Assembly: GCA_003228115.1 (NCBI GenBank)
Contig: QEVV01000002.1
Coordinates: forward strand, 1-64,000
Direction of reading: 5' to 3'
Source: Chloroflexota bacterium
Lineage (GTDB): Bacteria; Chloroflexota; Dehalococcoidia; Lucifugimonadales; SAR202-VII-2
Length of the DNA stretch: 64,000 nucleotides
The translations under genes and the position numbers were made by a program. Shown here one piece after another: positions 43,628 through 57,919 of the stretch. The number at the start of each line of letters is the position of its first letter. Position 1 is the first letter of the stretch. The notes beneath the pieces are model-generated. The model searched no databases, was not told where the DNA came from, and was given only the letters and a program-made list of their open reading frames with translations.

Positions 43628-44668
43628 ATGTCCGTTTCAGCAAGAATGTATCTCGGAACCAACAATGGCGTAGTGACCCTGGCCAAGAATGGCGAGTGGT
43701 CAGTCGAGAGCCGGGGACTCCAAGGCTGGTCCATCCCAAGGATCGCTGTGGACCCTTCGTCACCGAACCGCCTGTTCGCAGGCACGCTGGGCAATGGCGT
43801 CTGGCTCAGCGAGGACGCCGGGAAATCGTGGGACAAGCCTTCCTATGGCAAGAAGGGCCCGGGCAAGGTGCGTGGCATGACCCTGCACCCGGACGACCCC
43901 AACACGATCTACGTGGGCAATGAGCCCATCGACCTTTACATGAGCAAGGACGCTGGCGAGACCTGGACGACCTTCGACTCTATTTGGTCGATTCCTTCCG
44001 TCGAGTCTGTCGTTTTCCCCTCGAGAGCGATCGAGCCTCATCTGCGGGACATCGTCATCAAACCTGATGACCCCAACACCATGTACGTAGCCCTTCAGGT
44101 GGGCTACATGCTCAAAAGCGAAGATGGTGGGGCATCTTGGAGGCTGCTGGACAAAGGCCTCGACGCTGACGTCCATTCCATCGCCATGAACCCTACCAAC
44201 ACGTCCGAGATGGTCATCGCCACGGGCGGCTACCAGAGCCGCGGGGGCAAGGTCGCCGGGCGAGCACTCTACCGTAGCGAGGACGGTGGTGAGTCGTGGA
44301 GTCCAACAGCCATGGACTTCCCACACACCTACTCGGACCCGCTCATTCGCCACCCTCAAAACCCTCAGATATTGTTTGCTTCTCTGGGCTTGGGCGAGCC
44401 GCCGGAGTGGAGCCGGCCCAGCGGAGCGGAGACCATCTTCGTACGCTCCGAGGACGGCGGGAAGAGTTGGGAAGCCATCGAGGGCGCTTTGCCAACGGAC
44501 GGGAAGCTGTTCCTGGGAGCGCTTGACCTAGACGAGCAGGACAACGACCGCCTCTACGGGGCGATGCGTGGTGGAGACATGATCACCAGCACCAACGGCG
44601 GAACGACCTGGACTTCTCTGGGTGTTGAGGTGCCGCCGGTCAATCACATTAAATTGGCGAGGGCGTAG
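43628..44668 (+). CDS. Asp-box (BNR) repeat beta-propeller protein
   Basis: A 346-residue repeat protein with at least six Asp-box motifs: SEDAGKSW, SKDAGETW, SEDGGASW, SEDGGESW, SEDGGKSW and STNGGTTW. These stabilise beta-propeller blades in sialidases and related glycosidases, but the sialidase catalytic Arg triad is not evident and there is no signal peptide. It probably forms a cytosolic propeller of unknown binding or enzymatic role. AAGGAGG precedes the ATG. It may share a transcript with the CoA-transferase gene 112 bases upstream. Confidence 0.85.
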   Translation: MSVSARMYLGTNNGVVTLAKNGEWSVESRGLQGWSIPRIAVDPSSPNRLFAGTLGNGVWLSEDAGKSWDKPSYGKKGPGKVRGMTLHPDDPNTIYVGNEPIDLYMSKDAGETWTTFDSIWSIPSVESVVFPSRAIEPHLRDIVIKPDDPNTMYVALQVGYMLKSEDGGASWRLLDKGLDADVHSIAMNPTNTSEMVIATGGYQSRGGKVAGRALYRSEDGGESWSPTAMDFPHTYSDPLIRHPQNPQILFASLGLGEPPEWSRPSGAETIFVRSEDGGKSWEAIEGALPTDGKLFLGALDLDEQDNDRLYGAMRGGDMITSTNGGTTWTSLGVEVPPVNHIKLARA

Positions 44669-44772
44669 ATTCCCGGCCCTATTCCAGCAAAGAGGCGTGC
44701 CGCTAGCGTCAGAGTTCCTTGACGGCCAGGACGCCGGATTCTTTTGTGGAATGCGGCCTGCAATGAAGCTCC

Positions 44773-44810
44773 GAACCGCCCCCTTCTTTTGTAGAAGAAG
44801 GGGGCGGTTC
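44773..44810. terminator. Bidirectional terminator between convergent genes
   Basis: Perfect 16-bp stem with arms 44773-44788 (GAACCGCCCCCTTCTT) and 44795-44810, loop TTGTAG. It sits between the Asp-box gene (plus) and an amidohydrolase gene (minus), 13 bases from the latter's stop. Confidence 0.8.
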
Positions 44811-44823
44811 TCTTATTGAAGCC

Positions 44824-45870
44824 CTACAGCCGGAAGAGTTGCTTGCTGTTGTGGTACAGGATCTTATCCCGGCTCTCCTGGGGAATGTCCTCCCGACCAG
44901 CCACCGTATTAAGGTTCTCCGGGAACCGGGCGTCCCAGTGAGGATAGTCGGAGGCAAAAAGGAAGTGGTCGTCGCCAACCAGGCGGATGACCTCCGGCAG
45001 CAGCGTCTCATCCGGCTCCACGCTGACAAACATCGGGGACATCTTGAACACCTCGCTGGGTTTCTCCCGGAGCAAGGGCATCTCCAACTCGCCCCGCAGC
45101 TCCCAATGTTCGTCCATGCGGTCCAACCAGTAGGTTAGCCAGGACGCGCCGATCTCCAGGAAGGCCAGCCGCAGCTTGGGAAAGCGGATGGGCACGCCCT
45201 GGGCCATCATGCTAGTGAACTGCAGCGCTACCCCGGCGAACATCGTGTAGGTGTGGACCTCGCTGAAGTTCTCCAGGGTGTATCCGCCCACCTCCAACTG
45301 CGAGTGACGGTTGGCGTGCACGCAAATGGGAACGCCAAGCTCCTCGGCGGCCTTGTAGATGGGGTCGTACATGGAGTCGCCCAGGGCCTTGGGCAGCCCA
45401 ATGGCCAGCACGGCGAAGGCGTTCATCCCTAGGTCCTCCACGGCCCGGCGCAATTCCTCAGCAGCCCGCTCTGGCTGCTGAAAGGGCAGCATGCCCACCA
45501 CATGCAGGCGGTCAGACAAGGCGTTGAAGTCTTTGGCGAAGTGATCGTTGGTAGCCCGGCACACAGCCAGGGTGTAATCCTTCTCAGTGAGCTTCGTCAG
45601 GTTCCCAGCAACGCTAGGGAAGAGCATGGTCTGCTCAATGTTCTCTTGCTCCATACGAGTGAGCCAACGCTCCACCTGCTCTGCCGGGCTGATGCCTGCC
45701 CGGTACTCGTCATAGCCCAGGGTCTCGAACATGTCGCCGTCCCATGGTTGGTTGCTGCTGGGCCACAGCGGCGTCCTGCGCCGAACCCAAGGCTCGGCCA
45801 GATACTTGCGAATGTCGCTCTCTCGTTCGTAGATGTGCCCGTCTGCGTCGATGACTGCGTTCCGAGCCAT
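44824..45870 (-). CDS. Amidohydrolase-2 family protein
   Basis: A 348-residue metal-dependent TIM-barrel enzyme (PF04909). Visible motifs are VIDADGHIYE, CVHANRH in the middle, LAFLEIGASW, and FASDYPHWDA near the C-terminus, the last carrying the conserved metal Asp. In the N-terminal motif DADGH, Asp and His are spaced as in ACMSD-like members. The start is ATG 45870, with GGAGG 6 bases before it. Substrate is unknown; neighbours (SDR, CoA-transferase, cupin) suggest degradation of organic acids. Confidence 0.9.
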   Translation of the reverse strand: MARNAVIDADGHIYERESDIRKYLAEPWVRRRTPLWPSSNQPWDGDMFETLGYDEYRAGISPAEQVERWLTRMEQENIEQTMLFPSVAGNLTKLTEKDYTLAVCRATNDHFAKDFNALSDRLHVVGMLPFQQPERAAEELRRAVEDLGMNAFAVLAIGLPKALGDSMYDPIYKAAEELGVPICVHANRHSQLEVGGYTLENFSEVHTYTMFAGVALQFTSMMAQGVPIRFPKLRLAFLEIGASWLTYWLDRMDEHWELRGELEMPLLREKPSEVFKMSPMFVSVEPDETLLPEVIRLVGDDHFLFASDYPHWDARFPENLNTVAGREDIPQESRDKILYHNSKQLFRL

Positions 45871-46004
45871 GCCTATCCTCCATGCGCCGAGATTGCCGCA
45901 TTTCACCACAAAGGCAGGGCCGGGGCAACACAGGATGCGGCCCAGATAAGTGGGGCCGGGGCAATGCCCGGCTGAGGTATGGGGAGATGTCCCCTGCTAG
46001 AGGC

Positions 46005-46754
46005 CTAACTGAACAGGGTCCCGCCGTTGATGTGAAAGGCCTGGCCATTGATCGACTGTTGGGCAGGGTCGCAGAGGTAGAGGCAAAGGTCGGCGACTTC
46101 CTCAGGTTGGGTGACCCTCCCCAAGGGCTGGCCAACCGCTATTTGCGGATAGTCCCTACCGGGCGTCCGATAGTTTGAATCTTCCGTCTGGATGGTCCCC
46201 GGCACGACGGTATTGGACAGTATATTGTCCTTGGCGAATTCCTTAGCCAGCGTCCTCGTTAGGCCCAACAAACCGGCCTTGGCAGCGGCGACATGGGGCT
46301 CTCCAACCACGCCATTGAACGCACCGCCACCCGAGATATTCACGATCCGCCCCCAATGACGCTCGATCATGCCAGGAAGCACCGCTTGGGCAACGAAGAA
46401 AGGCCCATCCAGGTTGGAAGCCAACACCCGCCGCCAGCTTTCGGCCGAGATAGTTAGCGTGTCCTCTTTGGGACGGTACCCCACGTTGCTTACCAAAATG
46501 TCGACCGCGCCAAAAACCGATATGGCCTCCCCCACAAAGCGTCCAACTTCTTCCCGGTCGCCTACATCACCAATGACCGTGAGAGCCTTAACGCCTTTGC
46601 CTTCCACCATTCGGGCGGTTTCTTCCGCGGCGGCCTTGTCCTTGTAACCATGGACAACCACGTTTGCTCCTTCAGCAGCAAACGCTAGGGCGAGAGCCCG
46701 TCCAATGTTGCGGCTTGCACCGGTGACCAGGGCAGTTTTCCCTTGAAACTTCAT
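46005..46754 (-). CDS. SDR-family oxidoreductase lacking the catalytic Ser and Tyr
   Basis: A 249-residue classical SDR fold. The nucleotide loop is TGASRNIGRA, the NAG motif is replaced by SNVG, and the structural Asn is in ASNLDG. At the active site, the usual YxxxK reads VAAAK (Val155, Lys159), and the residue at the catalytic Ser position, 13 before it, is Gly142. The C-terminal NGQAFHINGGT is normal. It likely binds NAD(P) but cannot use the normal mechanism. The ATG at 46754 begins the conserved MKFQGKTALVTG. Confidence 0.88.
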   Translation of the reverse strand: MKFQGKTALVTGASRNIGRALALAFAAEGANVVVHGYKDKAAAEETARMVEGKGVKALTVIGDVGDREEVGRFVGEAISVFGAVDILVSNVGYRPKEDTLTISAESWRRVLASNLDGPFFVAQAVLPGMIERHWGRIVNISGGGAFNGVVGEPHVAAAKAGLLGLTRTLAKEFAKDNILSNTVVPGTIQTEDSNYRTPGRDYPQIAVGQPLGRVTQPEEVADLCLYLCDPAQQSINGQAFHINGGTLFS

Positions 46755-46785
46755 GAGTAGCTTCTCTACGTGATGATTGTGGGTT

Positions 46786-46933
46786 ATCTCGTCGTTGCGA
46801 GCGAGTAGTCGAGCGAAGCAAACTGGAGGGGAAGTGGGGTTGCAACTCACGCTCGCCCCTTGCCTCATCCGAAAGCCCAGCCGCCCCACTAGCTTCCCAC
46901 GCCCCGAAGTATCGAGGCTCGCAATGACGAGAC
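46786..46933. mobile_element. MITE/REP-like element with terminal inverted repeats
   Basis: Inverted ends TCTCGTCGTTGCGAGC (46787-46802) and GCTCGCAATGACGAGA (46917-46932) match at 15 of 16 positions and enclose about 115 non-coding bases. The end sequence resembles a common environmental repeat (CGTCATTGCGAGC...). A solo copy of one end is at 62211. No transposase is encoded; which enzyme moves it is unknown. Confidence 0.7.
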
Positions 46934-47005
46934 CTCTGTCGTCGAAAGCGGGCGCTGCAGCAGAGAAATCCAAGAAATCCGACGGCGGCCCAGCCCTGCC
47001 AAAAC

Positions 47006-49411
47006 CTAGCCTCGAAGCGTCGCTCCCAGGTCGTTTTGGAGAATGCGCAGCGTCTTAGCCAGGGCCTGACTGACTTCTTCGCTGGTCAGGGTGCGGTTGG
47101 GCGCTCTTAACACTACTCGATAAGCCAAGGAGCGTTTGTCAGGATCAATGCGCTCGCCCTCATACACGTCGAAGAGAACGGCTTGATGCACCAGTGGATG
47201 CCCCTCGATGCGCTTCCTCACGTCTTGGGCTGAGACATCTTTGTTAACAACCAACGCCAAATCGCGCAGCGTATCGGGAAAACGGGAGATAGACTCAAAG
47301 CGGCGAGTGCCTTCGGGCAACGCGGCAAGAAGGGCCTCAATATCCAACTCGAACAGAGCCACCCTCTCCGCCGGCACATCGAAGCGCTCCAGCACGCCGG
47401 GGTGAACTTCACCAATGACGCCCACCTGCGCGCCGTTCACGAGGATGGAGGCGGTGCGCCCGGGGTGAAGCACTGAGTCGGTTGCTGGTTCATACACACC
47501 GGTAGTTGAAAGCTGGGCCAGCGCAGCCTCAATGACGCCCTTGGCGTCGAAGAAGTCCAATGTCTCTTCGCCAACCGATCCCCATGAGAGCGTCGCACGA
47601 GGCCCGGCCAGAACGCCGACTGCCTTCTCGTTCTCAAGGGGCAGGTCTCCCTCTCTCGGGGTGTATACCCGGCCGATTTCGAAGAGGCGCAAGCCAGCCT
47701 CTGGAGAACGACGCAGGTTCGCAGCAAGGCTGGACAGCAAACTCGCCCTAAGGCTCGTCCGCAGGTACTCCTGCTCCTGGCTCATGGGATTGGCGACCTT
47801 CAAGGAACCATCCGGTTTCATTTCCAACGCCTCAAGGGCTTCGCCATTCACCAGCGTGTAGGAAATGGTTTCCTGCATTCCCGCTTCCACCAACAAGTCC
47901 CTCAACTCTTCCCGCAGATCCCGCCAGGGCTGCGGGCGTCGAGCGGCCAGGGCGCCGGTTAAGGGCGTTGCAGGGATACGGTCGTAGCCCGTAGTCCGTG
48001 CCACTTCCTCCACAAGGTCCTCTGGAATAGCGATGTCAGTGCGCCAATAGGGAGGGGTAACCTCCAACGAACCTTCGGCCTTGACGACCACATTGAAGCC
48101 AAGGGCCTCCAATGTCTCCTGCGCCACAGCTTGCTCGATCGGCGTGCCCAGCACCCGGCCAACACGTTCCATGGTGAGCAAGATCGAGGGCGTCTCCGAA
48201 CGGCCAGGATAGGCATCTATTGTCCCCCGAGCAGCCGTACCGCCCGCCAGCTCGAGAATGAGCTGCGTGGCTCGGCGCAACGCCAGGGGTGGCAACTCTG
48301 GCCCCAGCCCTTTCTCGAATCGCAGTGAAGCTTCTGTCCGAATGCCAAGGCCTCGGGCTGTAAGTCGTGTGTTTGTTGGATGGAAATTGGCCGACTCTAC
48401 GAGGACATCGGTGGTGGCTTCAGTCATCTCTGAGTTCGCGCCACCCATGACACCTGCGAGGCCTACGCCTCGCTCGGGGTCGGCGATCAGGAGCATCGGC
48501 GAAGACAGCTTGTGCTCCTCGCCATCAATGGTTCTCAACGTTTCGCCGTTCTTGGCAGGCCGGACGACGACTGTCTGCTGCCGCACTGTGTTGAAATCGA
48601 AGGCGTGCAGGGGTTGGCCGTACTCCAACATGACGTAGTTAGTAACGTCGACAACATTATTGATGGGCCGTTGCCCCGCCAGAACCAGCCGGTCCTGCAT
48701 CCATTGAGGTGAAGGACCGATACTCACGCCCCTGATGAGGCTAGCCGTGTAGCGAGGGCACAGATCGGCGTCTTCGACGACGACCTTGGCCTGGTCCTCT
48801 ATAGGGTCCCCAGCCTCGGAATAAGACAGGTCAGGGTCAGTTACCCGCTGGCCGGTGAGAGCAGCCACTTCATGAGCGATGCCCAGAATGGAAAGGCAAT
48901 CCGGCCGGTTGGGCGTGACTTCGATGTCGAGGACAACGTCGCCCAGCAGGTCCGCCAAGGGCGTGCCCACCGAGGTGTCTGGGGGAAGGACCAAAATTCC
49001 TTCGTGGCTGTCGCCCAGGCCGAGCTCAAGCTCTGAACAGACCATCCCCGCCGATTCCACGCCACGGATCTTGGCCCGCTTCAGGTCTTCCACCTTGCCT
49101 TCGTGGGCGTTGTAGAGACGTGCGCCCTCTTTGGCGAAGGCAATCTTCTGGCCTTCAGCGACATTGGGAGCACCGCAGACCACGGTCCAGGTCTCTTGCC
49201 CCAATTCAACAGTGGCCAGGCGAAGGCGGTCGGCGCCGGGGTGCGGTTCGATGCCCGTGACCAGCCCCACAACAACACGATCTCTATCCCACCCGCCGAT
49301 AATCTCGACCTCACCAACCTCCAGCCCAGCCAACGTCAAGCGATGTGCCAGGTCTTTGGGGGCCAGCGTGACGGGGACATAATCTTTCAGCCAGGAAAGG
49401 GGAACGCGCAT
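47006..49411 (-). CDS. pheT: Phenylalanine--tRNA ligase beta subunit
   Basis: Beta subunit of the (alpha-beta)2 tRNA synthetase, 801 residues, full length. The order is normal: N-terminal OB-fold tRNA-binding domain (VVGLVTGIEPHPGADRLRLA), B1/B5 domains (NRPDCLSILGIAHEVAALTG), B3/B4 editing core, catalytic-like core (YEPATDSVLHPGRTASI) and C-terminal FDX-ACB domain (SRFPDTLRDLALVV). It is not next to pheS: a CADD-like gene and hicBA separate them, which is unusual. Confidence 0.97.
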   Translation of the reverse strand: MRVPLSWLKDYVPVTLAPKDLAHRLTLAGLEVGEVEIIGGWDRDRVVVGLVTGIEPHPGADRLRLATVELGQETWTVVCGAPNVAEGQKIAFAKEGARLYNAHEGKVEDLKRAKIRGVESAGMVCSELELGLGDSHEGILVLPPDTSVGTPLADLLGDVVLDIEVTPNRPDCLSILGIAHEVAALTGQRVTDPDLSYSEAGDPIEDQAKVVVEDADLCPRYTASLIRGVSIGPSPQWMQDRLVLAGQRPINNVVDVTNYVMLEYGQPLHAFDFNTVRQQTVVVRPAKNGETLRTIDGEEHKLSSPMLLIADPERGVGLAGVMGGANSEMTEATTDVLVESANFHPTNTRLTARGLGIRTEASLRFEKGLGPELPPLALRRATQLILELAGGTAARGTIDAYPGRSETPSILLTMERVGRVLGTPIEQAVAQETLEALGFNVVVKAEGSLEVTPPYWRTDIAIPEDLVEEVARTTGYDRIPATPLTGALAARRPQPWRDLREELRDLLVEAGMQETISYTLVNGEALEALEMKPDGSLKVANPMSQEQEYLRTSLRASLLSSLAANLRRSPEAGLRLFEIGRVYTPREGDLPLENEKAVGVLAGPRATLSWGSVGEETLDFFDAKGVIEAALAQLSTTGVYEPATDSVLHPGRTASILVNGAQVGVIGEVHPGVLERFDVPAERVALFELDIEALLAALPEGTRRFESISRFPDTLRDLALVVNKDVSAQDVRKRIEGHPLVHQAVLFDVYEGERIDPDKRSLAYRVVLRAPNRTLTSEEVSQALAKTLRILQNDLGATLRG

Positions 49412-49430
49412 GCGGGCAGAACTCCTGCGA

Positions 49431-49676
49431 CTAACGCAACTCGGCTATCAGATCTTCCTTGGGAACGCCAATACGAACGCTTACGACACTCAATAAGTCG
49501 TTCAAGGTACCTTTGGCTATAACTCGGTGTGCTGGGACACTCAAATGGTGTTGGCCAGAGGAGGTCAACTTGGTCAGCCGAACGTGGCTACCTTTCTGGC
49601 GAACGACCTCGTATCCCAATCGTTCCAAGAGTCGAACGAGGTTTTGACCGCTGACTTGAGGGAGGCCGTCAGACAC
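49431..49676 (-). CDS. hicA: HicA-type toxin (mRNA interferase)
   Basis: An 81-residue double-stranded-RNA-binding-like toxin with the catalytic His in RQKGSHVRLTK, the family's signature, and the preceding LERLGYEVV helix. The C-terminus ends with the helix GVPKEDLIAEL. It is longer than many HicA proteins (about 60) but within range. Its start overlaps the end of hicB by 8 bases. HicA cleaves mRNA when not bound by HicB. Confidence 0.9.
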   Translation of the reverse strand: MSDGLPQVSGQNLVRLLERLGYEVVRQKGSHVRLTKLTSSGQHHLSVPAHRVIAKGTLNDLLSVVSVRIGVPKEDLIAELR

Positions 49677-49872
49677 GGACCTCCGCCTCGGAGAGCAGCA
49701 AGATACTCAGAGCTTCTCCCTTCTCAAGTTGGTCCTCAAAGTGGAGCAGGGCGACCTCCTTCACATTCTCTAAGAGATCGTCAAGCGTCGCGCCCTGAGT
49801 GAAGAAGTCGGCGCCAATGCCCCGGCCGCACCAATACTCGCCGTCGTAGTAAGCCTCGACTTTTACCAACAT
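49669..49872 (-). CDS. hicB: HicB-like antitoxin (short form)
   Basis: A 67-residue protein with the partial RNase-H-like fold of HicB: VKVEAYYDGEYWCGRGIG, then the helix GATLDDLLENVKEVALLHF. It lacks the C-terminal DNA-binding domain of full HicB, so autorepression may be absent. It precedes hicA with an 8-base overlap, the usual order when HicB is first. The pair sits between pheS/CADD and pheT. Confidence 0.88.
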   Translation of the reverse strand: MLVKVEAYYDGEYWCGRGIGADFFTQGATLDDLLENVKEVALLHFEDQLEKGEALSILLLSEAEVRV

Positions 49873-49952
49873 GGTTCCCGCCTCTATTCCGATCTAAGCC
49901 CATTATATCGCCTGCGAAGCAATCCGCCAGCGTGAGCCGGATCGGACACATA

Positions 49953-49988
49953 AGTAGCCCCAGGCGCCTTTGGCGGCCTGGGGCTACT
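49953..49988 (-). terminator. Terminator downstream of the CADD-like gene
   Basis: Stem AGTAGCCCCAGGC (49953-49965) / GCCTGGGGCTACT (49976-49988) with an inner GCC/GGC pair and a single bulged base. It begins 22 bases after the gene's stop and separates the pheS transcript from hicBA. Confidence 0.7.
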
Positions 49989-50009
49989 ACTGTTTACAGT
50001 CATGCGAAA

Positions 50010-50678
50010 CTAGTTGCGAGCGTTACGCACTCGCTCAACTCCGTCCAGGAAGCCCCACCAAGCATCAAGCGCCCGCTGAGCTGCCTGCTCGACAGCCAGT
50101 TCGTCCGAGGTGGTGTTCGTTAGCACGTCCGCTTCAGCGGCGGAGTGGATGAGGTCGATCTCCTCGTGGAGAGCAAAGAACTCAATGGCGGCAAGGCTGT
50201 CCAGGCCGTAGAACTCCTTGAGGCCCAGCACCTTGGTCTCGGCGACGGCGGGAAGCTGGCGCTCGTAGGCGTAGACGGCGGCCAGCCCTTCTTGATACGT
50301 GCCGTTCTCGGCGATGTCCTGAAGCGTGTCGACCAGCGCAGCCGTCTCCGGCAGAAGGTCGACGCCACGGACATCCTCAGCCGACAGACCTAGCGCCCCG
50401 GCGAACTCCAGCCACAGGGCTGGGTGGTTGCGGCTGCCATGCTCCTCATCCCAGAGGTTGGAGAGAATGGTCTGACGGACAGAGGGATCATCGCAGCGGC
50501 TATGGATAGCGCTGAGAATGGTTGGGAAGTTCGCCTCGAAATGGTAGTACTGGGCGGCGTACAGGCGCAGGTCATCCAGTGAAAGCTCGCCTGCCTGCCA
50601 AGCCTGGTAAAAACTGTGCCCCAGCAGGCTCTTCGCCTCGATTCTCGCATCCAAACGTTCAATCAACGGTGCAGTCAC
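50010..50678 (-). CDS. CADD-family protein, predicted self-sacrificing p-aminobenzoate synthase
   Basis: A 222-residue TenA/PqqC-like di-metal helical protein. Compared with Chlamydia CADD, all key residues are present at a constant offset of -3: metal ligands Glu78, His85, Glu139, His171, Asp175 and His178, plus Tyr24 and Lys149, which match the Tyr27 and Lys152 that CADD consumes to make p-aminobenzoate. Thus a folate-precursor role is likely. It is 17 bases downstream of pheS, with which it should be cotranscribed. No pabAB is in the window. The offset count is mine and depends on an ungapped alignment. Confidence 0.88.
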   Translation of the reverse strand: MTAPLIERLDARIEAKSLLGHSFYQAWQAGELSLDDLRLYAAQYYHFEANFPTILSAIHSRCDDPSVRQTILSNLWDEEHGSRNHPALWLEFAGALGLSAEDVRGVDLLPETAALVDTLQDIAENGTYQEGLAAVYAYERQLPAVAETKVLGLKEFYGLDSLAAIEFFALHEEIDLIHSAAEADVLTNTTSDELAVEQAAQRALDAWWGFLDGVERVRNARN

Positions 50679-50695
50679 GGTGCCTCCCTGGAATT

Positions 50696-51784
50696 CTAGA
50701 ATTGCCTCAGAAACCGAATGTCGTTGCCGTAGAACAACCTAATATCGTCGATACCGTATTTGAGCATGGCGATGCGCTCCGGCCCCATGCCGAAAGCGAA
50801 GCCAGTGTACTTCTCCGGGTCGTAGCCAACACCGGCGAGTACCTTGGGATGGACCATCCCTGCGCCCATAATCTCAATCCAGCCCGTCTCTTTGCAAATC
50901 CGGCATCCGGAGCCGTCCTTCAGGTGTCCATCGCCTTGGCAGTTAAAGCAGTCGATGGACATATCCACGCCGGGCTCCACAAAGGGAAAGTAGTCGCACC
51001 GGAACCGTATGCGGCGCTCTTGGCCGAAAATACGGCGGGCGAATTCGTAGAGAGTCCCCTTGAGATGAGCAAAGGTTATCCCTTCGTCCACGGCCAATCC
51101 TTCAATCTGGTAGAACTGGGACTCATGGGTAGCGTCGGTAGCCTCGTACCGGTAGCACTTGCCGGGGACGATCACCCGCACCGGCGGTTCCTGGCTTTCC
51201 ATCACCCGAGCCTGCATAGGCGAGGTGTGGGTTCGCAGTAGCATGGGCCGCCGGCCCTCGTCATCTACATGGTCGATCCACAGCGTGTCCCACATATCCC
51301 TGGCCGGATGGTCCTGGGGGATGTTCAGCAACTCAAAATTGTAGCGGTCCCACTCCACCTCAGGTCCTTCCAATATCTGAAACCCCATGCTGGCGAAGGC
51401 ATCACAAATCTCGCGGACGATTTGCGTCGACGGGTGAAATCGGCCTACCGATACCGGACGGCCTGGCAAAGTCACGTCGATCCGTTCAGTCTCGGCGAGT
51501 CCTGTCCGCCGCTGGGCAAGAAGCTCTTCTTGCCGGTCCTCAAAGCTGCGTTCAAGCAGGGTCTTGATCTGGTTGGCGGCAGCCCCTGCGGCCTTCCGCT
51601 CCTCCACTGGCAAAGAACCAACAGAGCGAAGTACCTGGGTGAGCTTGCCGCTACGGCCAAGATAGCCGATCCGCCACTGCTCCAACGACTCATCGGTAGA
51701 ACAAGCCTCCAGCTCTGCAAGGGCCAGGGCCTGAAGCTCGTCGTGACTGGGGCTAGCGATTTGAATATCTTCGGAAGCAGACAC
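50696..51784 (-). CDS. pheS: Phenylalanine--tRNA ligase alpha subunit
   Basis: Catalytic subunit charging tRNA-Phe, 362 residues. It has an N-terminal coiled-coil arm, then motif 2 ([20 protein letters not shown]) and motif 3 ([22 protein letters not shown]). A four-Cys cluster, CFNCQGDGH and CRICKETGW, forms an insert near residues 280-300, as in several bacterial PheS. A strong promoter is placed about 40 bases upstream of the start. It heads an operon with the CADD-like gene; pheT lies 1.3 kb downstream. Confidence 0.97.
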
Positions 51785-51820
51785 AGAACAACCTAGCTAC
51801 GAATTTCGACAGTGGGGCCA

Positions 51821-51850
51821 ATTATAGGTGGGGCTGGCGGAGAGGGTCAA
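51821..51850 (-). promoter_or_regulatory. Predicted pheS promoter
   Basis: On the minus strand, -35 TTGACC (51845-51850) and perfect -10 TATAAT (51821-51826) with an 18-base spacer. Transcription would start near 51814, giving a leader of about 30 bases, too short for a T-box. Confidence 0.75.
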
Positions 51851-51939
51851 GGAACACCCCTGACCGGCAACCCTTCCGGTTGTACTATGAAACTGGAGCC
51901 CGCCGGGTAAATCCAACGACGGACAGGAGGTAGCGGATA

Positions 51940-52158
51940 GTGGCCTACTCAGTGACCTACAACGCTCCTGATTCCCGCCTCGGCAACGCCGATGTCGTTT
52001 TCACCGTAACGACGAACGAAGGCAAGCTCGGGGAACTGCACATCAGCAAGGGCGCTCTGGCATGGAAGCCCTTCTACAGCCACCATTCCTACAAGCTAAA
52101 TTGGCAAGACTTCGCCAGGCTTGCCGAAGAGCAGGGGAAGAAGGCGCCGGGCACCTAG
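51940..52158 (+). CDS. Conserved-looking small protein (72 aa)
   Basis: A 72-residue polar protein with an N-terminal beta-rich part (NADVVFTVTTNEGKLGELHISKG in pieces) and a C-terminal helix. The pattern KLGxLxxSKGxxxWxP followed by a helix is one I have seen in small uncharacterised bacterial proteins. Start GTG 51940 has AGGAGG 9 bases upstream. A weak promoter (CTGACC 51860-51865, TACTAT 51883-51888, 17-base spacer) precedes it. Divergent from pheS and convergent with the dprA-like gene. Function is unknown. Confidence 0.75.
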   Translation: MAYSVTYNAPDSRLGNADVVFTVTTNEGKLGELHISKGALAWKPFYSHHSYKLNWQDFARLAEEQGKKAPGT

Positions 52159-52175
52159 TCTACCGATGGCTCTCT

Positions 52176-53069
52176 CTATAGTAACCGGCCCGGTACCAGG
52201 GCTAGCTCACCAGAGATGGAAGCCAACGCTGTCTTCAACGCTGTCTTGCTTTGGAGAGGAAGCGCTCCTTCACCTAAGAGAAGCTTGTTGCCTTTTGCAC
52301 TTGGGTTGTTCGTATACTCAATGACCCACAAGGGCTTGCGCTGAGTTAGGCACTCCCGGCCCGCATTGATGGTTCCCCCAGTTTCCCCCGCCTCCACCAC
52401 CACAACGCCATTTGACAAGCCACAAATGAGCTTGTTCCGCTCCATGGCGTTGTGAACACGCCACGGCATTCTGGGGGGAAACGCTGATACCGCTATCAAA
52501 TTGTCAGTGTTTATCAGGGGCCTGAGAGAACTGCGCGGTTTGAACCCTTCCATACCCTCAGGAAGCACGGCTACGGTCTGTCCTCCACCTTCCAAGGCGC
52601 CAGCGTGTGCCTCTTCATCGATCCCGCGGGCATGCCCGCTGACAACGATCAAAGATTGCTCTGCAGCGATCCTTCCGAAGCCACGAGCGTGCCGCAGAGC
52701 ATCTGGAGAAGCGTGGCGAGAACCGCAAATACCAATGGATCTAGCTGCTAGAGCATCCGACCCGCCCCAGACATACAGAACAGGAAATCTGCTGCTGCTT
52801 AACAAACGCTCAGGGTAAGCGGGGTCCGTCTTGATCAGGCATTCGACCCCTTGCTGCTCCAAGTCATCAAAGGTAGATTGATCTTCGCCGAACCTCTGCC
52901 GCGCTACCTCGACTCGTTCAGCCACCTTCGCCCCCATCACCTGAGCTAGCAGGGATAATCCTTCTGGCCCAAGGAGTTCAGCGTCTCCACCAGACCACTC
53001 CACTAACCGAGAGAGAGTTACCGGTGACGAACGAAATTGTTCATGGATCGCGCTCCAGAGCCAGTGCAT
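52176..53069 (-). CDS. DprA/Smf-like DNA-processing protein
   Basis: A 297-residue protein with the Rossmann-type DprA core. Recognisable parts are IGICGSRHASPDALRHARGF, VVSGHARGIDEEAHAGAL, GGQTVAVLPEG, RNKLICGLSNGVVVVEAGETGGT and INAGRECLTQRKPLWVI. Normal DprA reads RGIDxxAH, GGxTIAVL and RNRIIAGLS here, so it is divergent. No C-terminal winged helix is evident. The ATG at 53069 is 5 bases after the stop of the phosphoribosyltransferase gene. The two are probably cotranslated. It may act outside natural transformation. Confidence 0.88.
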   Translation of the reverse strand: MHWLWSAIHEQFRSSPVTLSRLVEWSGGDAELLGPEGLSLLAQVMGAKVAERVEVARQRFGEDQSTFDDLEQQGVECLIKTDPAYPERLLSSSRFPVLYVWGGSDALAARSIGICGSRHASPDALRHARGFGRIAAEQSLIVVSGHARGIDEEAHAGALEGGGQTVAVLPEGMEGFKPRSSLRPLINTDNLIAVSAFPPRMPWRVHNAMERNKLICGLSNGVVVVEAGETGGTINAGRECLTQRKPLWVIEYTNNPSAKGNKLLLGEGALPLQSKTALKTALASISGELALVPGRLL

Positions 53070-53074
53070 GTTTT

Positions 53075-54016
53075 CTATCCCCACGGCCAGCTCAGTAAGT
53101 CCATTCCGCGCGTTGCTGTAGCGTTCTTGGTCGCAACAAGTCCTAGAACCTCGATTGCTCCCGTCTTTCTGCAAAGTCCACAAACTTCTGCCATGGAGTC
53201 TCCCGTCTTATACAAGTCATCAATGATGATGATAGCTTCACCTTGTAAATCGCCCGCAAGCACGGCCGTAGCCCCTTGTTCTTGGTTAAACTCGGGCCGT
53301 GATCCATCAATGTCCTTCCGAGCCTCAACTCCAACAATTCTCCGCGGCAGAACGAGGCGTTTGCCGAGCGTTTCTGCCAGGCCTCTTCCAAGGTAGGTTA
53401 CCAAAGTCTCCTTTCGTGCCGGGTCAGAGGAGGGGACAGTAACGATAGTGTGGGCTCTGGCATATCGCGGATGCCGATCAATGAACTCAGTCATCCAATC
53501 AAGAATCTCCCCTGCCGCTTTCTGATTCCGGACTGGCACACTTTTAGTGTAATCCTTGGCTTTATACACCAACCCTCCCAACTTTGTGCGAACAAAGCCG
53601 CCTCCCGGTTCCAAGGGAATCGTGTGGGGGGCCAAGGCGTGAGATTCATCTAATCGATCCTCAATAGTCAGGCTGTGTCCCACCACCATTAGAAATTCTT
53701 CCAAATCTTCTTGCTGGACGTTCGACACCGTGAAAGCTTGCCTCGGGGCTGAAGGCAAATATTGAGGACCCGTCGGCAACGGACGTCGCATAGCGCTTAC
53801 GACTGCTTGCGGAAATGCCGCTCGTACGATCGAGCTCCAATCAACTGTGGAACCACCCTCGCAGGTCACTTCCGCAGCGACGGATTCCCCTAGCGCTATG
53901 AGCTTTGATTCCAACAAAAAGCTACAGAAAGCCATGTTGAGATCAAGACGGCGTAGGAGGGGCCCATATGTCAACGACCCTCTGTCCACCAGAGAGTGCC
54001 CTGGGGCTATTGCCAA
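53075..54016 (-). CDS. Phosphoribosyltransferase-domain protein with unknown N-terminal domain
   Basis: A 313-residue protein. The C-terminal half is a type I PRTase: TIVTVPSSDPARKETLV, then the PRPP-binding loop AIIIIDDLYKTGDSMAEV. The N-terminal 150 residues match nothing I recognise. Start is TTG 54016, 12 bases after the phosphofructokinase stop; ATG 53935 is an alternative. It precedes the dprA-like gene by 5 bases. Base composition dips here (53521-53580 is 47% G+C by count, against 65% in 54061-54120), which suggests transfer. It may be ComF-like, but ComF has a zinc-finger N-terminus, absent here. Confidence 0.82.
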   Translation of the reverse strand: MAIAPGHSLVDRGSLTYGPLLRRLDLNMAFCSFLLESKLIALGESVAAEVTCEGGSTVDWSSIVRAAFPQAVVSAMRRPLPTGPQYLPSAPRQAFTVSNVQQEDLEEFLMVVGHSLTIEDRLDESHALAPHTIPLEPGGGFVRTKLGGLVYKAKDYTKSVPVRNQKAAGEILDWMTEFIDRHPRYARAHTIVTVPSSDPARKETLVTYLGRGLAETLGKRLVLPRRIVGVEARKDIDGSRPEFNQEQGATAVLAGDLQGEAIIIIDDLYKTGDSMAEVCGLCRKTGAIEVLGLVATKNATATRGMDLLSWPWG

Positions 54017-54028
54017 ATAGCCAAAGGC

Positions 54029-55033
54029 CTAAGAGAAAAGCTGGGCAAGGTCGCAGGCCTCCGGGTCCACTGGCCGCGGAGATTGGCGTACCTCGCTCAA
54101 CGGAACGGGAACGATTGCACCGTTGACCATCGCCACCATGGTGCCGGTCTTCCCTTCCAGAATGAGTTCCACGGCCTTGGCGCCCATGCGGGACGCTGTG
54201 ATCCGGTCAAAGGCGGTTGGACTACCGCCGCGCTGGACGTAGCCCAGCACCGTGACCCTTATTGTGCTCGACATGAACTGCCCGAGGGCTGCGGCCAGAG
54301 AATGCCCAATGCTCGTGCCCGGAGCACCGCCCATACCTGTCTCACGGTCTATCCCCTCAATGCGGGAACCCTCCGCCACTGCAATGATGCTGAACTTGCT
54401 TCCTCGCTCCACCCGGGCAAGCACGCGATCTCGAATATCGGTGAGCGAGAGGGAAATCTCCGGCGATACGATCACGTCTGCGCCCCCGGCTAGCCCGCCG
54501 AGGACTGCCAGCCAGCCGCTGCGATTGCCCATGACCTCCACGACCATAATTCGGTGATGCGCCGCCGCCGTGGGATGCAGCTTGTCCAGCGCATCCATTA
54601 CAGCGTTCATGCCCGAATCGAATCCGATGCAGTACTCAGTGCCGGGCACATCATTGTCGATGGTCTTGGGGATTCCTACGAGAGGTAGACCGCGTTCGCA
54701 GATTTCCAGGGCTCCGCGTAATGACCCGTCCCCTCCCAGAACTACCAGGCCGTCCAGTTCATGGGCCTTTGCGGTCGCAAGGACTCGTTCGGCCGTTCCA
54801 GCAGGCGCTATCGGGTTGGTTCTAGAAGCACCGAGAATCGTCCCACCTTGGGGAAGTATGCCGGAGAGCGCCCTGAGGGTAAGATCCATAAAGTCATCTT
54901 CGAGCAGGCCCAGCCAGCCGTTCCTGAAACCCAGCACCTCGACGCCGTCAGCCAAGGCACGGCGAGCCACCGCTCTGATGGCCGCATTGAGACCCGGAAC
55001 GTCTCCCCCGCTGGTCAGTACGCCAATCCGCAT
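54029..55033 (-). CDS. pfkA: 6-phosphofructokinase (ATP-type with Lys at the second specificity site)
   Basis: Phosphorylates fructose-6-phosphate, 334 residues. N-terminal GVLTSGGDVPGLNAAIR, phosphate loop GGDGS (Gly103) and catalytic PKTIDND (Asp126). Gly at the E. coli 104 site is the ATP form, while Lys at the 124 site (PK instead of PG) is shared with PPi enzymes; this mixed pair is known from the actinobacterial-type group III PFKs. ATP use is likely but not certain. It ends 12 bases before the PRTase gene and starts 9 bases after the aldolase gene. Confidence 0.93.
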   Translation of the reverse strand: MRIGVLTSGGDVPGLNAAIRAVARRALADGVEVLGFRNGWLGLLEDDFMDLTLRALSGILPQGGTILGASRTNPIAPAGTAERVLATAKAHELDGLVVLGGDGSLRGALEICERGLPLVGIPKTIDNDVPGTEYCIGFDSGMNAVMDALDKLHPTAAAHHRIMVVEVMGNRSGWLAVLGGLAGGADVIVSPEISLSLTDIRDRVLARVERGSKFSIIAVAEGSRIEGIDRETGMGGAPGTSIGHSLAAALGQFMSSTIRVTVLGYVQRGGSPTAFDRITASRMGAKAVELILEGKTGTMVAMVNGAIVPVPLSEVRQSPRPVDPEACDLAQLFS

Positions 55034-55042
55034 GAACGCTCC

Positions 55043-56107
55043 CTAAGAGCCGCGATACTCTTTGTGCCACTCCAGGCTCTTCTGGTCCAAAGACGGGGCT
55101 CCGCCATCCCCACGAGAGTTCCATGGCGTAGCGTTAGAGGCGATGGCCTTGATCCGGTTGAAGTTGTATACGCCGTCCGTCTCTAGGAAACGGACCATAG
55201 CGTCGGTGTCAGGGTAGAACTGAAGCGACTGCTGCCACATCGCCCGGCCGCAGAGGAACCCACTGGCTCCGGCATCGACGGAGAACTGGAGGTTGAAAAG
55301 GAACTCATCAATATCGACGCCGCCGCTGAGAATCACCCAAGGCTTGGAAGACGCCGCGTCCAACTGTTTGCAGATGTCCTTGACCTCCTTGACCCCATAG
55401 ACCGGCTCGCGAGTCTTGGAGTCGAAATAGGCGTTGCAGAACTCTTCTGTGAATTTCAGACTGGTGGGGAATTCCAGCTTCAGCACGTCCACCCGATACT
55501 CTGGCTTGGAGAACTCGGTGGCGCTGGCAATGGTGATACGAGGTTTGGCCAAGGCGTACTCAGGGCCGTCTGTCGACGGCTCGTCCACCGCATAGCCCAC
55601 CGTCTCTAGCAAAAAGGGGATGTCCTCTTCCACGCAAGCCTCTCCCACCTGGCGCACGACATCGTGCTGGTGCTTGAGGACTTCCTCCGGAGCATCCGGG
55701 TGGTAGTGGATCAGCAGCTTTACCGCGTTGGACCCGGACCGTTTCACCTTACTCACGGACCAGCCGTCCAAGATCATCGCCTTTCTGCCCTTGCCAGAGG
55801 GGCCAGCCTCATAGCCCGAGTGCTCCACCGCCAGCAGGACCCCTACCTTGGGCGGCAGGGCCTCAAGCGTGTAAGGGAAGCCATAGATGGGATCCATGAG
55901 GGTCGCTGTGGAATGAGGAGCCAGGACGCCCGTAATAGCAACCTTGGCCGCAACTACGTCCTCCGGTGTCTGTTTGCGGCCGTCGCCCAGCACCTTCTGA
56001 AGCGCCTGCTCCATGGAACCTCGCTGGTCTATAGCCAGCATCAAGAAGCGACCGGACGCGTCGCTCAACTGTTTCAGATTGATCAGCTTCCCCGCTGATA
56101 GGGCCAT
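55043..56107 (-). CDS. LacD-like tagatose/fructose-1,6-bisphosphate class I aldolase
   Basis: A 354-residue TIM-barrel aldolase of the LacD group. Features are LMLAIDQRGSMEQAL at the N-terminus, LMDPIYGFP, AVKLLIHYHPDAP with the Schiff-base Lys strand, LKLEFPTS, and PWVILSGGVDIDEF. Paired with phosphofructokinase, it would split the product fructose-1,6-bisphosphate (or tagatose bisphosphate). ATG 56107 follows GGGAGG by 6 bases. The pair forms a glycolytic unit and heads the operon that goes on to the PRTase and dprA-like genes. Confidence 0.88.
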   Translation of the reverse strand: MALSAGKLINLKQLSDASGRFLMLAIDQRGSMEQALQKVLGDGRKQTPEDVVAAKVAITGVLAPHSTATLMDPIYGFPYTLEALPPKVGVLLAVEHSGYEAGPSGKGRKAMILDGWSVSKVKRSGSNAVKLLIHYHPDAPEEVLKHQHDVVRQVGEACVEEDIPFLLETVGYAVDEPSTDGPEYALAKPRITIASATEFSKPEYRVDVLKLEFPTSLKFTEEFCNAYFDSKTREPVYGVKEVKDICKQLDAASSKPWVILSGGVDIDEFLFNLQFSVDAGASGFLCGRAMWQQSLQFYPDTDAMVRFLETDGVYNFNRIKAIASNATPWNSRGDGGAPSLDQKSLEWHKEYRGS

Positions 56108-56220
56108 GACGACCTCCCAAAGTGTTCGTAAGTACAACGCCCACGCATCAAGCCGGGCATCGCTGAAGGTAGCCTACCGTGTCTCCCAACGCCGTTCAAG
56201 CCCGTGCCCGGCACTTTTTA

Positions 56221-56249
56221 TTGACAGCCTGAACGAGCCAAGGCTACGC
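56221..56249 (+). promoter_or_regulatory. Possible promoter of the acyl-CoA mutase gene
   Basis: -35 TTGACA (56221-56226) is a full consensus; the best -10 at 18 bases is TACGCT (56245-56250), which matches at three positions only. It lies about 30 bases before the ATG at 56282. Confidence 0.35.
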
Positions 56250-56281
56250 TGACCCTAGCAACATGAGGGGCGAGTAGTGCG

Positions 56282-57919
56282 ATGGTAGAAAGCAAAGAAC
56301 TGAAGAGCGAAACGCCAGGATTCGGGCCAGAGCGAAAGGAATCCTTCACCACTATCTCGGCCCTGCCGATTGAAAGGGTCTACACGCCTGAGGATGTGGC
56401 CGATGTCGATTACGAGAAGGATGTCGGCAATCCTGGCGACTACCCGTACCTGCGGGGACTCCACCAAACAGGGTACCGGGGAAAGCTCTGGACCATGCGC
56501 ATGTTCGCTGGATTCGGAGGAGCGGAGGAGACAAACCAGCGCTTCAAGTACCTATTGGAGCACGGCCAGACGGGGCTCAGCACCGCCTTCGATATGCCCA
56601 CCCTCTATGGCTACGACACCGATCACCCCTGGTCTCTAGGTGAGTTCGGCAAATGCGGCGTCGCCGTGTCCAGCTTGCGTGATATGGAAGTCCTCTACGA
56701 CGGCCTTCCCCTGGACACCATTACAACGTCCATGACCATCAACAGCCCGGCGGCCATCATCTGGGCCATGTACATCGCTGCCGCGGAGAAGCGGGGCATC
56801 CCCGCCGCCAAGCTCGGCGGCACTACGCAGAACGACATCTTGAAGGAGTACATCGCCCAAAACGAGTACATCTTCCCTCCGGAACCCTCCATGCGTCTCG
56901 TGGTGGACACCATTGAGTTCGCTACCCAGCACCTCCCCAAATGGAACCCGGTAAGCATCAGCGGATACCACATCCGTGAGGCAGGCTCCACGGCTGTCCA
57001 AGAACTGGCTTTCACGCTCTACGACGGGTTGGAGTACGTCCGATGGTGTTTGGAGCGGGGTCTCGACATCGACGACTTTGCCCCGCGATTGAGCTTCTTC
57101 TTCAATATCCACAACGAGTTCTTTGAAGAGATCGCCAAGTTCCGAGCGGCCCGCCGCATCTGGGCGCACGAGATGCGGGAGACCTTCGGCGCCAAAAACG
57201 AGCGGTCTTGGTGGATGCGTACCCATGCTCAGACCGCCGGTTGCGCCCTGACGGCCCAGCAGCCTGAAAACAACGTCGTGCGGGTAGCGCTCCAAGCGAT
57301 GGCAGCCGTTCTGGGCGGCACGAACTCCCTCCACACCAATGGCATGGACGAGGCCTGGGCCCTACCGTCGGAGAAGGCCGCGCTATTGGCCCTCCGAACG
57401 CAGCAACTCATCGCCCATGAGAGCGGGGTCGCCAACACGGTGGACCCATTGGGCGGAAGTTATTTCGTTGAATCCCTCACCAGCCAGATCGAAGAAGGAG
57501 CACGGGAGTACTTCCGCCGCATCGACGATCTGGGAGGCGCCCTGCCCTGCATCGACAACGGCTTCTTCGTCAGAGAGATAGCCGACGCTTCGTACCGCTT
57601 CCAGAGAGAGGTGGAGGACAAGGAACGCATCATCGTAGGAGTGAATGACTTCGTCACGAACGATGAGATGGATATCCCCATCCTTCAAATGGACCAGGAA
57701 GGGGAGCGCAAGCAGATCGCCCGCCTTGCTGAGGTACGTCGGACCCGAGACAATCGGGAAGTCAGCAGGACATTGGAAGGCCTCCGGCAGGCGGCCAGGG
57801 TCAATAAGAACCTAATGCCCTATCTGGTGGACGCCGTGAAAGCCTACGCCACCCTCGGCGAAACAATGGACGTTCTCCGAGATGTGTTCGGTGTCTACGA
57901 ACCAACCTGGGGAGCGTAG
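56282..57919 (+). CDS. icmA: B12-dependent acyl-CoA mutase large subunit, isobutyryl-CoA-mutase-like
   Basis: Coenzyme-B12 radical mutase TIM-barrel subunit, 545 residues, without the C-terminal B12-binding domain, so a separate small subunit is required; none is in the window. Core motifs: [30 protein letters not shown] and RTHAQTAG. The two specificity residues are Phe75 in RMFAGFG and Gln193 in EYIAQNEY, 118 apart, as in isobutyryl-CoA mutase (Phe80/Gln198), whereas methylmalonyl-CoA mutase has Tyr89/Arg207. So the likely reaction is isobutyryl/n-butyryl-CoA interconversion. The B12 importer at 37-40 kb fits the cofactor need. Confidence 0.88.

Follow-up and report, generated by a model that had tools for sequence, protein, structure and literature searches.

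A CADD-family gene downstream of pheS

The window, that is the whole 64,000-nucleotide stretch of Chloroflexota DNA analysed here, carries on its minus strand a predicted gene for a CADD-family self-sacrificing p-aminobenzoate (pABA) synthase (50010..50678), assigned by the family profile TIGR04305, by matches in the PDB and by an AlphaFold model. The open reading frame proposed in the first-pass annotation was recovered exactly at 50010-50678; it begins with a GTG at 50678, just downstream of a strong Shine-Dalgarno sequence (AGGGAGG), and encodes 222 amino acids. The upstream neighbour is pheS (50696..51784, minus strand; TIGR00468, 322.9 bits, cut-off 237), the stop codon of which lies 17 nt from the start of the CADD gene, and both genes are probably co-transcribed. 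A candidate sigma-70-like promoter of this pair (51821..51850, minus strand; TTGACC and TATAAT with 18 nt in between), assigned by its match to the consensus only (11 of 12 positions), is located upstream of pheS, and a strong hairpin (49953..49988, minus strand; MFE -38.2 kcal/mol, z -6.1) directly follows the CADD stop codon, so that pheS and CADD may form one transcript, of which the hairpin is a candidate end or stabiliser. Since no T-run follows, the hairpin is not a standard intrinsic terminator. No match to an RNA control element was obtained with Rfam in positions 44000-57000 of the window at E 0.1.

Farther downstream, a HicA-like toxin gene (PF07927) and a 67-aa open reading frame encoding a possible antitoxin (49431-49872, minus strand) are located between CADD and pheT, and the pheS-pheT pair is thus split by CADD together with the HicA-like/antitoxin pair. 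Folate genes were not found beside CADD in the host genome. The adjacency to a Phe-tRNA synthetase gene pointed out in the first-pass annotation holds as far as pheS is concerned, but, of the genomes examined, only the host shows it, and no functional meaning is attached to it. A functional link between CADD and pheS was rejected, as pheS, pheT, pfkA and other genes of this neighbourhood were not found near CADD in 80 named relatives and four order-level regions.

The window protein reached 254.8 bits with TIGR04305 ('CADD family putative folate metabolism protein'), above the curated cut-off of 200, and contains the Pfam domains Haem_oxygenas_2 and TENA_THI-4. In a phmmer search against the PDB, the top match was a 4-aminobenzoate synthase (9pj4, 1e-48), while Chlamydia CADD (1rcw and the 8va9 series) was matched at 5.6e-41; these E-values exclude a chance likeness. 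Judged by residue numbering, 9pj4 appears to be PabS of N. europaea (NePabS), for which Tyr25, Phe148, Lys159 and Phe177 fit with a constant tag offset. The AlphaFold2 model of the window protein (built with 44 sequences; pLDDT 96.3, pTM 0.92) predicts a heme-oxygenase-like fold closest to that of CADD: it superimposes on 1rcw with a Z-score of 32.6 and an rmsd of about 1.1 Å over 213 residues, CADD entries are the closest structures, followed by PqqC (Z 27.7), and the top four matches in Foldseek were CADD chains.

Predicted active site and metal-choosing residues

The six metal ligands assigned by alignment to CADD are three histidines and three carboxylates, encoded (all codons on the minus strand) at 50445..50447 (Glu78, CADD Glu81), 50424..50426 (His85, CADD His88), 50262..50264 (Glu139, CADD Glu142), 50166..50168 (His171, CADD His174), 50154..50156 (Asp175, CADD Asp178) and 50145..50147 (His178, CADD His181). 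Tyr24 (50607..50609; CADD Tyr27, NePabS Tyr25) is the predicted sacrificed tyrosine and Lys149 (50232..50234; CADD Lys152, NePabS Lys159) the predicted amine donor. A constant offset of -3 to CADD (CT610) had been claimed earlier, and all eight residues do align with it. Both Tyr and Lys are conserved in 24 of 24 order-level CADD relatives, a sample collected by profile without residue patterns. Among 80 named relatives, Lys was found in 79 and Tyr in all 80, the latter count being partly circular because one of the two search patterns contained Tyr. As a control, heme-oxygenase-like proteins from the host genome (L004, L005) and from the order (L036, L038, L040) were read from printed alignments to the CADD-family profile; they have Phe at the Tyr site and Val or Phe at the Lys site. 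The Tyr/Lys pair is therefore specific to the CADD branch and not just a property of the fold.

Deviating homologues were also encountered. The CADD homologue of L125 (1663-2280) has Val at the position of the donor Lys and Phe at Tyr40; it would have to obtain the amine elsewhere or lack activity. In two related CADD-family proteins (L058, 1006-1653, and L067, 6001-6648; identical with L033 and L034), Lys replaces the metal-ligand Asp and Trp replaces Tyr138, making them possible repurposed copies. One of the two genomes encoding this pair (G121) has two chorismate-binding enzymes and is the only CADD-positive genome of the sample to do so.

Two aromatic residues close to the metals, Tyr138 (50265..50267, minus strand; CADD Tyr141, NePabS Phe148) and Phe167 (50178..50180, minus strand; CADD Tyr170, NePabS Phe177), occupy the positions that determine the metal preference in NePabS (PMC11965152). 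The F148Y variant of NePabS is about equally active with Fe/Fe and Mn/Fe, whereas in F177Y and in the double variant the preference is shifted to Mn/Fe (PMC11965152). The Tyr/Phe pair of the window protein is the combination of the F148Y variant, unlike the Tyr/Tyr of CADD or the Phe/Phe of N. europaea. Tyr/Phe is present in 56 of the 80 relatives, Tyr/Tyr in 11, Phe/Phe in 10 and Trp/Phe in two, one sequence being cut short; the most frequent natural pair thus differs from those of both characterised wild-type enzymes. By analogy with this one mutant of another protein, the window enzyme may be cambialistic and use either Fe/Fe or Mn/Fe. The Tyr/Phe pair, common yet uncharacterised, offers a direct test of the choice between Fe/Fe and Mn/Fe in the heme-oxygenase-like fold.

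Source of p-aminobenzoate in the host and its order

pABA is a building block of folate. The assembly of the host genome comprises 2.78 Mb and is 92.4% complete and 4.6% contaminated. The genes for later steps of folate biosynthesis are present, namely folE as well as folP and folK, which are located side by side. An intact pabABC route, named in the first-pass annotation as the finding that would speak against a CADD-type synthase, was sought in the host genome and not found. A single Chorismate_bind protein was found, TrpE (574.7 bits, TrpE cut-off 517.7), which scores below every PabB cut-off. Its gene is part of a trp operon, in which trpE and trpG are followed, by inspection, by trpD, trpC, trpF and trpB; the 634-kb contig with this operon also carries CADD. 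None of the three class IV aminotransferases of the host exceeded a PabC cut-off; two are IlvE, while the third (L009) is far below every such cut-off. A TrpG/PabA-type amidotransferase is encoded in the host genome, whereas the AbgT importer for uptake of p-aminobenzoyl-glutamate had no match there. Judged from its gene content, the host is predicted to make folate without a recognisable chorismate route to pABA, although pabB could have escaped an assembly of 92.4% completeness. Three near-complete CADD-positive relatives, assembled in one (G032), two (G009) and six contigs (G021), each encode a single chorismate-binding enzyme, TrpE. The reaction to pABA needs O2, which is probably available, since a heme-copper oxidase encoded in the host genome suggests an aerobic life.

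In the order, CADD was found in 25 of 197 genomes (24 copies above the cut-off and one broken copy). Two or more chorismate-binding enzymes are encoded in one of the 25 CADD-positive genomes compared to 40 of the 172 CADD-negative ones (Fisher p 0.03); given that the genomes are related, this weakly supports that the presence of CADD predicts the lack of a second chorismate-binding enzyme. Since no more than one chorismate-binding enzyme is likewise encoded in 132 of the 172 CADD-negative genomes, a missing PabB alone is no proof that CADD fills the gap. The folate enzyme HPPK is encoded in 135 of the 172 CADD-negative genomes, and at least 95 of the 197 genomes encode HPPK while lacking both CADD and a second chorismate-binding enzyme.

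These numbers bear on a different origin of pABA, in which TrpE also makes aminodeoxychorismate, the class IV aminotransferase L009 acts as the lyase and the CADD homologue has another role. The amidotransferase of the TrpG/PabA type, the aminotransferase without assigned role and the fact that many genomes of the order lack CADD and have just one chorismate-binding enzyme would fit such a route. It is nevertheless very unlikely, as TrpE is a clear anthranilate-synthase equivalog of the trp operon with scores below those demanded for PabB, the aminotransferase falls well short of the PabC cut-offs, and the sacrificial Tyr and Lys, which another function would not need, are conserved in almost every CADD relative. 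Slightly less probable still, and likewise very unlikely, is that the window protein is another type of dimetal oxidase with this fold, using a small molecule other than itself as substrate in the manner of PqqC, BesC or TenA. The fold is shared with such enzymes, the model resembles PqqC in structure, and weak profile matches were obtained, but the scores with PqqC (TIGR02111; 47 bits, equivalog cut-off 240), BesC (NF042919; 38.6 bits, equivalog cut-off 500) and TenA thiaminase II (TIGR04306; 13.4 bits, equivalog cut-off 130) are all far too low for membership, while the CADD score exceeds its own cut-off. Moreover, the CADD-specific Tyr/Lys pair is present in the window protein and absent from the other family members checked. 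A true TenA is encoded separately in the host genome (C1:276992-277615).

The CADD-type identity claimed in the first-pass annotation was upheld, with the TIGR04305 score above cut-off, the fold, the full set of catalytic residues and the genome context in agreement. Taken together, the gene very probably encodes a self-sacrificing pABA synthase of the CADD/PabS type, predicted to feed the folate pathway of an aerobic, Dehalococcoidia/SAR202-like member of the Chloroflexota. Following the steps established for the characterised CADD and NePabS, the dimetal site of the window protein would react with O2 and a reductant, and an oxidising hole would travel via aromatic residues to Tyr24 (a distance of about 14 Å in CADD). 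The side chain of Tyr24 would then be cleaved off, leaving Gly; O2 would oxidise the released side chain to the carboxylate, and Lys149 would supply the amine. Each protein molecule would be used only once.

Relatives, linkage to trpE and known systems

Family members were confirmed in 508 stretches of the genome collection. Besides Chloroflexota, members are found in Acidobacteriota, Myxococcota, Nitrosospira, Ignavibacteriota, Armatimonadota, Bdellovibrionota and further groups. In the midpoint-rooted tree, the window protein falls together with proteins of Lake Baikal Dehalococcoidia (support 96/87) within a Chloroflexota/SAR202 clade (100/99), and CADD and NePabS are placed in the other half. 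The Lake Baikal homologues (L048, L049 and L061) are the nearest relatives, with 59-65% identity; unlike the window gene, they are not located beside pheS. The copy in L061 is split by a frameshift or a sequencing error.

In 17 Chloroflexota loci (L057, L062, L066, L070, L073, L075, L078, L081, L085, L089, L091, L092, L103, L105, L114, L119 and L125), trpE is located downstream of CADD on the same strand; 16 of these belong to one clade that includes Tepidiforma, and L057 lies outside. A trpS-like gene is situated between CADD and trpE in 15 of the 17, while the printed reading frames display none in L062 and L091, and trpG follows further along in most of them. In L075, both trpS and trpE were checked against their family profiles. 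Genes for FolP and FolK were not found next to CADD in the relatives. The proximity of trpE suggests that pABA synthesis is linked to the tryptophan operon in these organisms. In an armatimonadotal locus (L108), trpE is located about 2.6 kb upstream of CADD. A weak TrpE-like match beside CADD in L046 was discarded; by inspection, it was taken as menF adjoining menD.

A more far-reaching reading is put forward tentatively and considered unlikely as a whole. The window protein would represent the commonest natural type (Tyr138/Phe167) and possibly accept either metal pair, Fe/Fe or Mn/Fe. Its expression in Chloroflexota may be coupled to genes related to aromatic amino acids (pheS in the host, trpS-trpE in a sister clade), so that a single-use, Tyr-consuming enzyme would be made according to the supply of aromatic amino acids.

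The occurrence of the gene in a free-living lineage, emphasised in the first-pass annotation, stands insofar as the gene is real in Chloroflexota, but a free-living bearer is not new: PabS of the free-living ammonia oxidiser N. europaea was characterised in 2025, and Chloroflexi were named among the carriers (PMC11965152). For the host itself, a free-living lifestyle is suggested by the habitats of its relatives, its genome size and its biosynthetic genes. The spread of the family implies that self-sacrificing pABA synthesis is distributed across many free-living phyla rather than being an oddity of pathogens.

PabS of N. europaea (NE1434) shares 44.8% identity with the window protein and has the same ligands, Tyr and Lys. 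Like the window gene, it is encoded outside a folate gene cluster, and its bearer is free-living, as the host of the window gene probably is (PMC11965152 for N. europaea). It differs in having Phe148/Phe177 where the window protein has Tyr138/Phe167, in an extra loop that raises the position offset by 9 between Tyr25 and Glu88, and in its neighbouring gene, which is glyA instead of pheS. CADD of C. trachomatis (CT610; 1rcw, 8va9, 8vag) is 37.9% identical to the window protein and has the ligands, Tyr, Lys and fold in common with it, but is distinguished by Tyr141/Tyr170, its dependence on Mn/Fe and its origin from an obligate pathogen. The Chlamydia gene is part of a folate gene cluster and its product also signals host-cell death (PMC11965152). 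Self-sacrificing pABA synthases in free-living bacteria were known already, and the window protein is a new member of this kind, of added interest for its Tyr/Phe type and for the linkage to trpS-trpE in relatives; a well-supported Chloroflexota case with tested genome context is thereby added to a very unusual reaction in which the enzyme is its own substrate.
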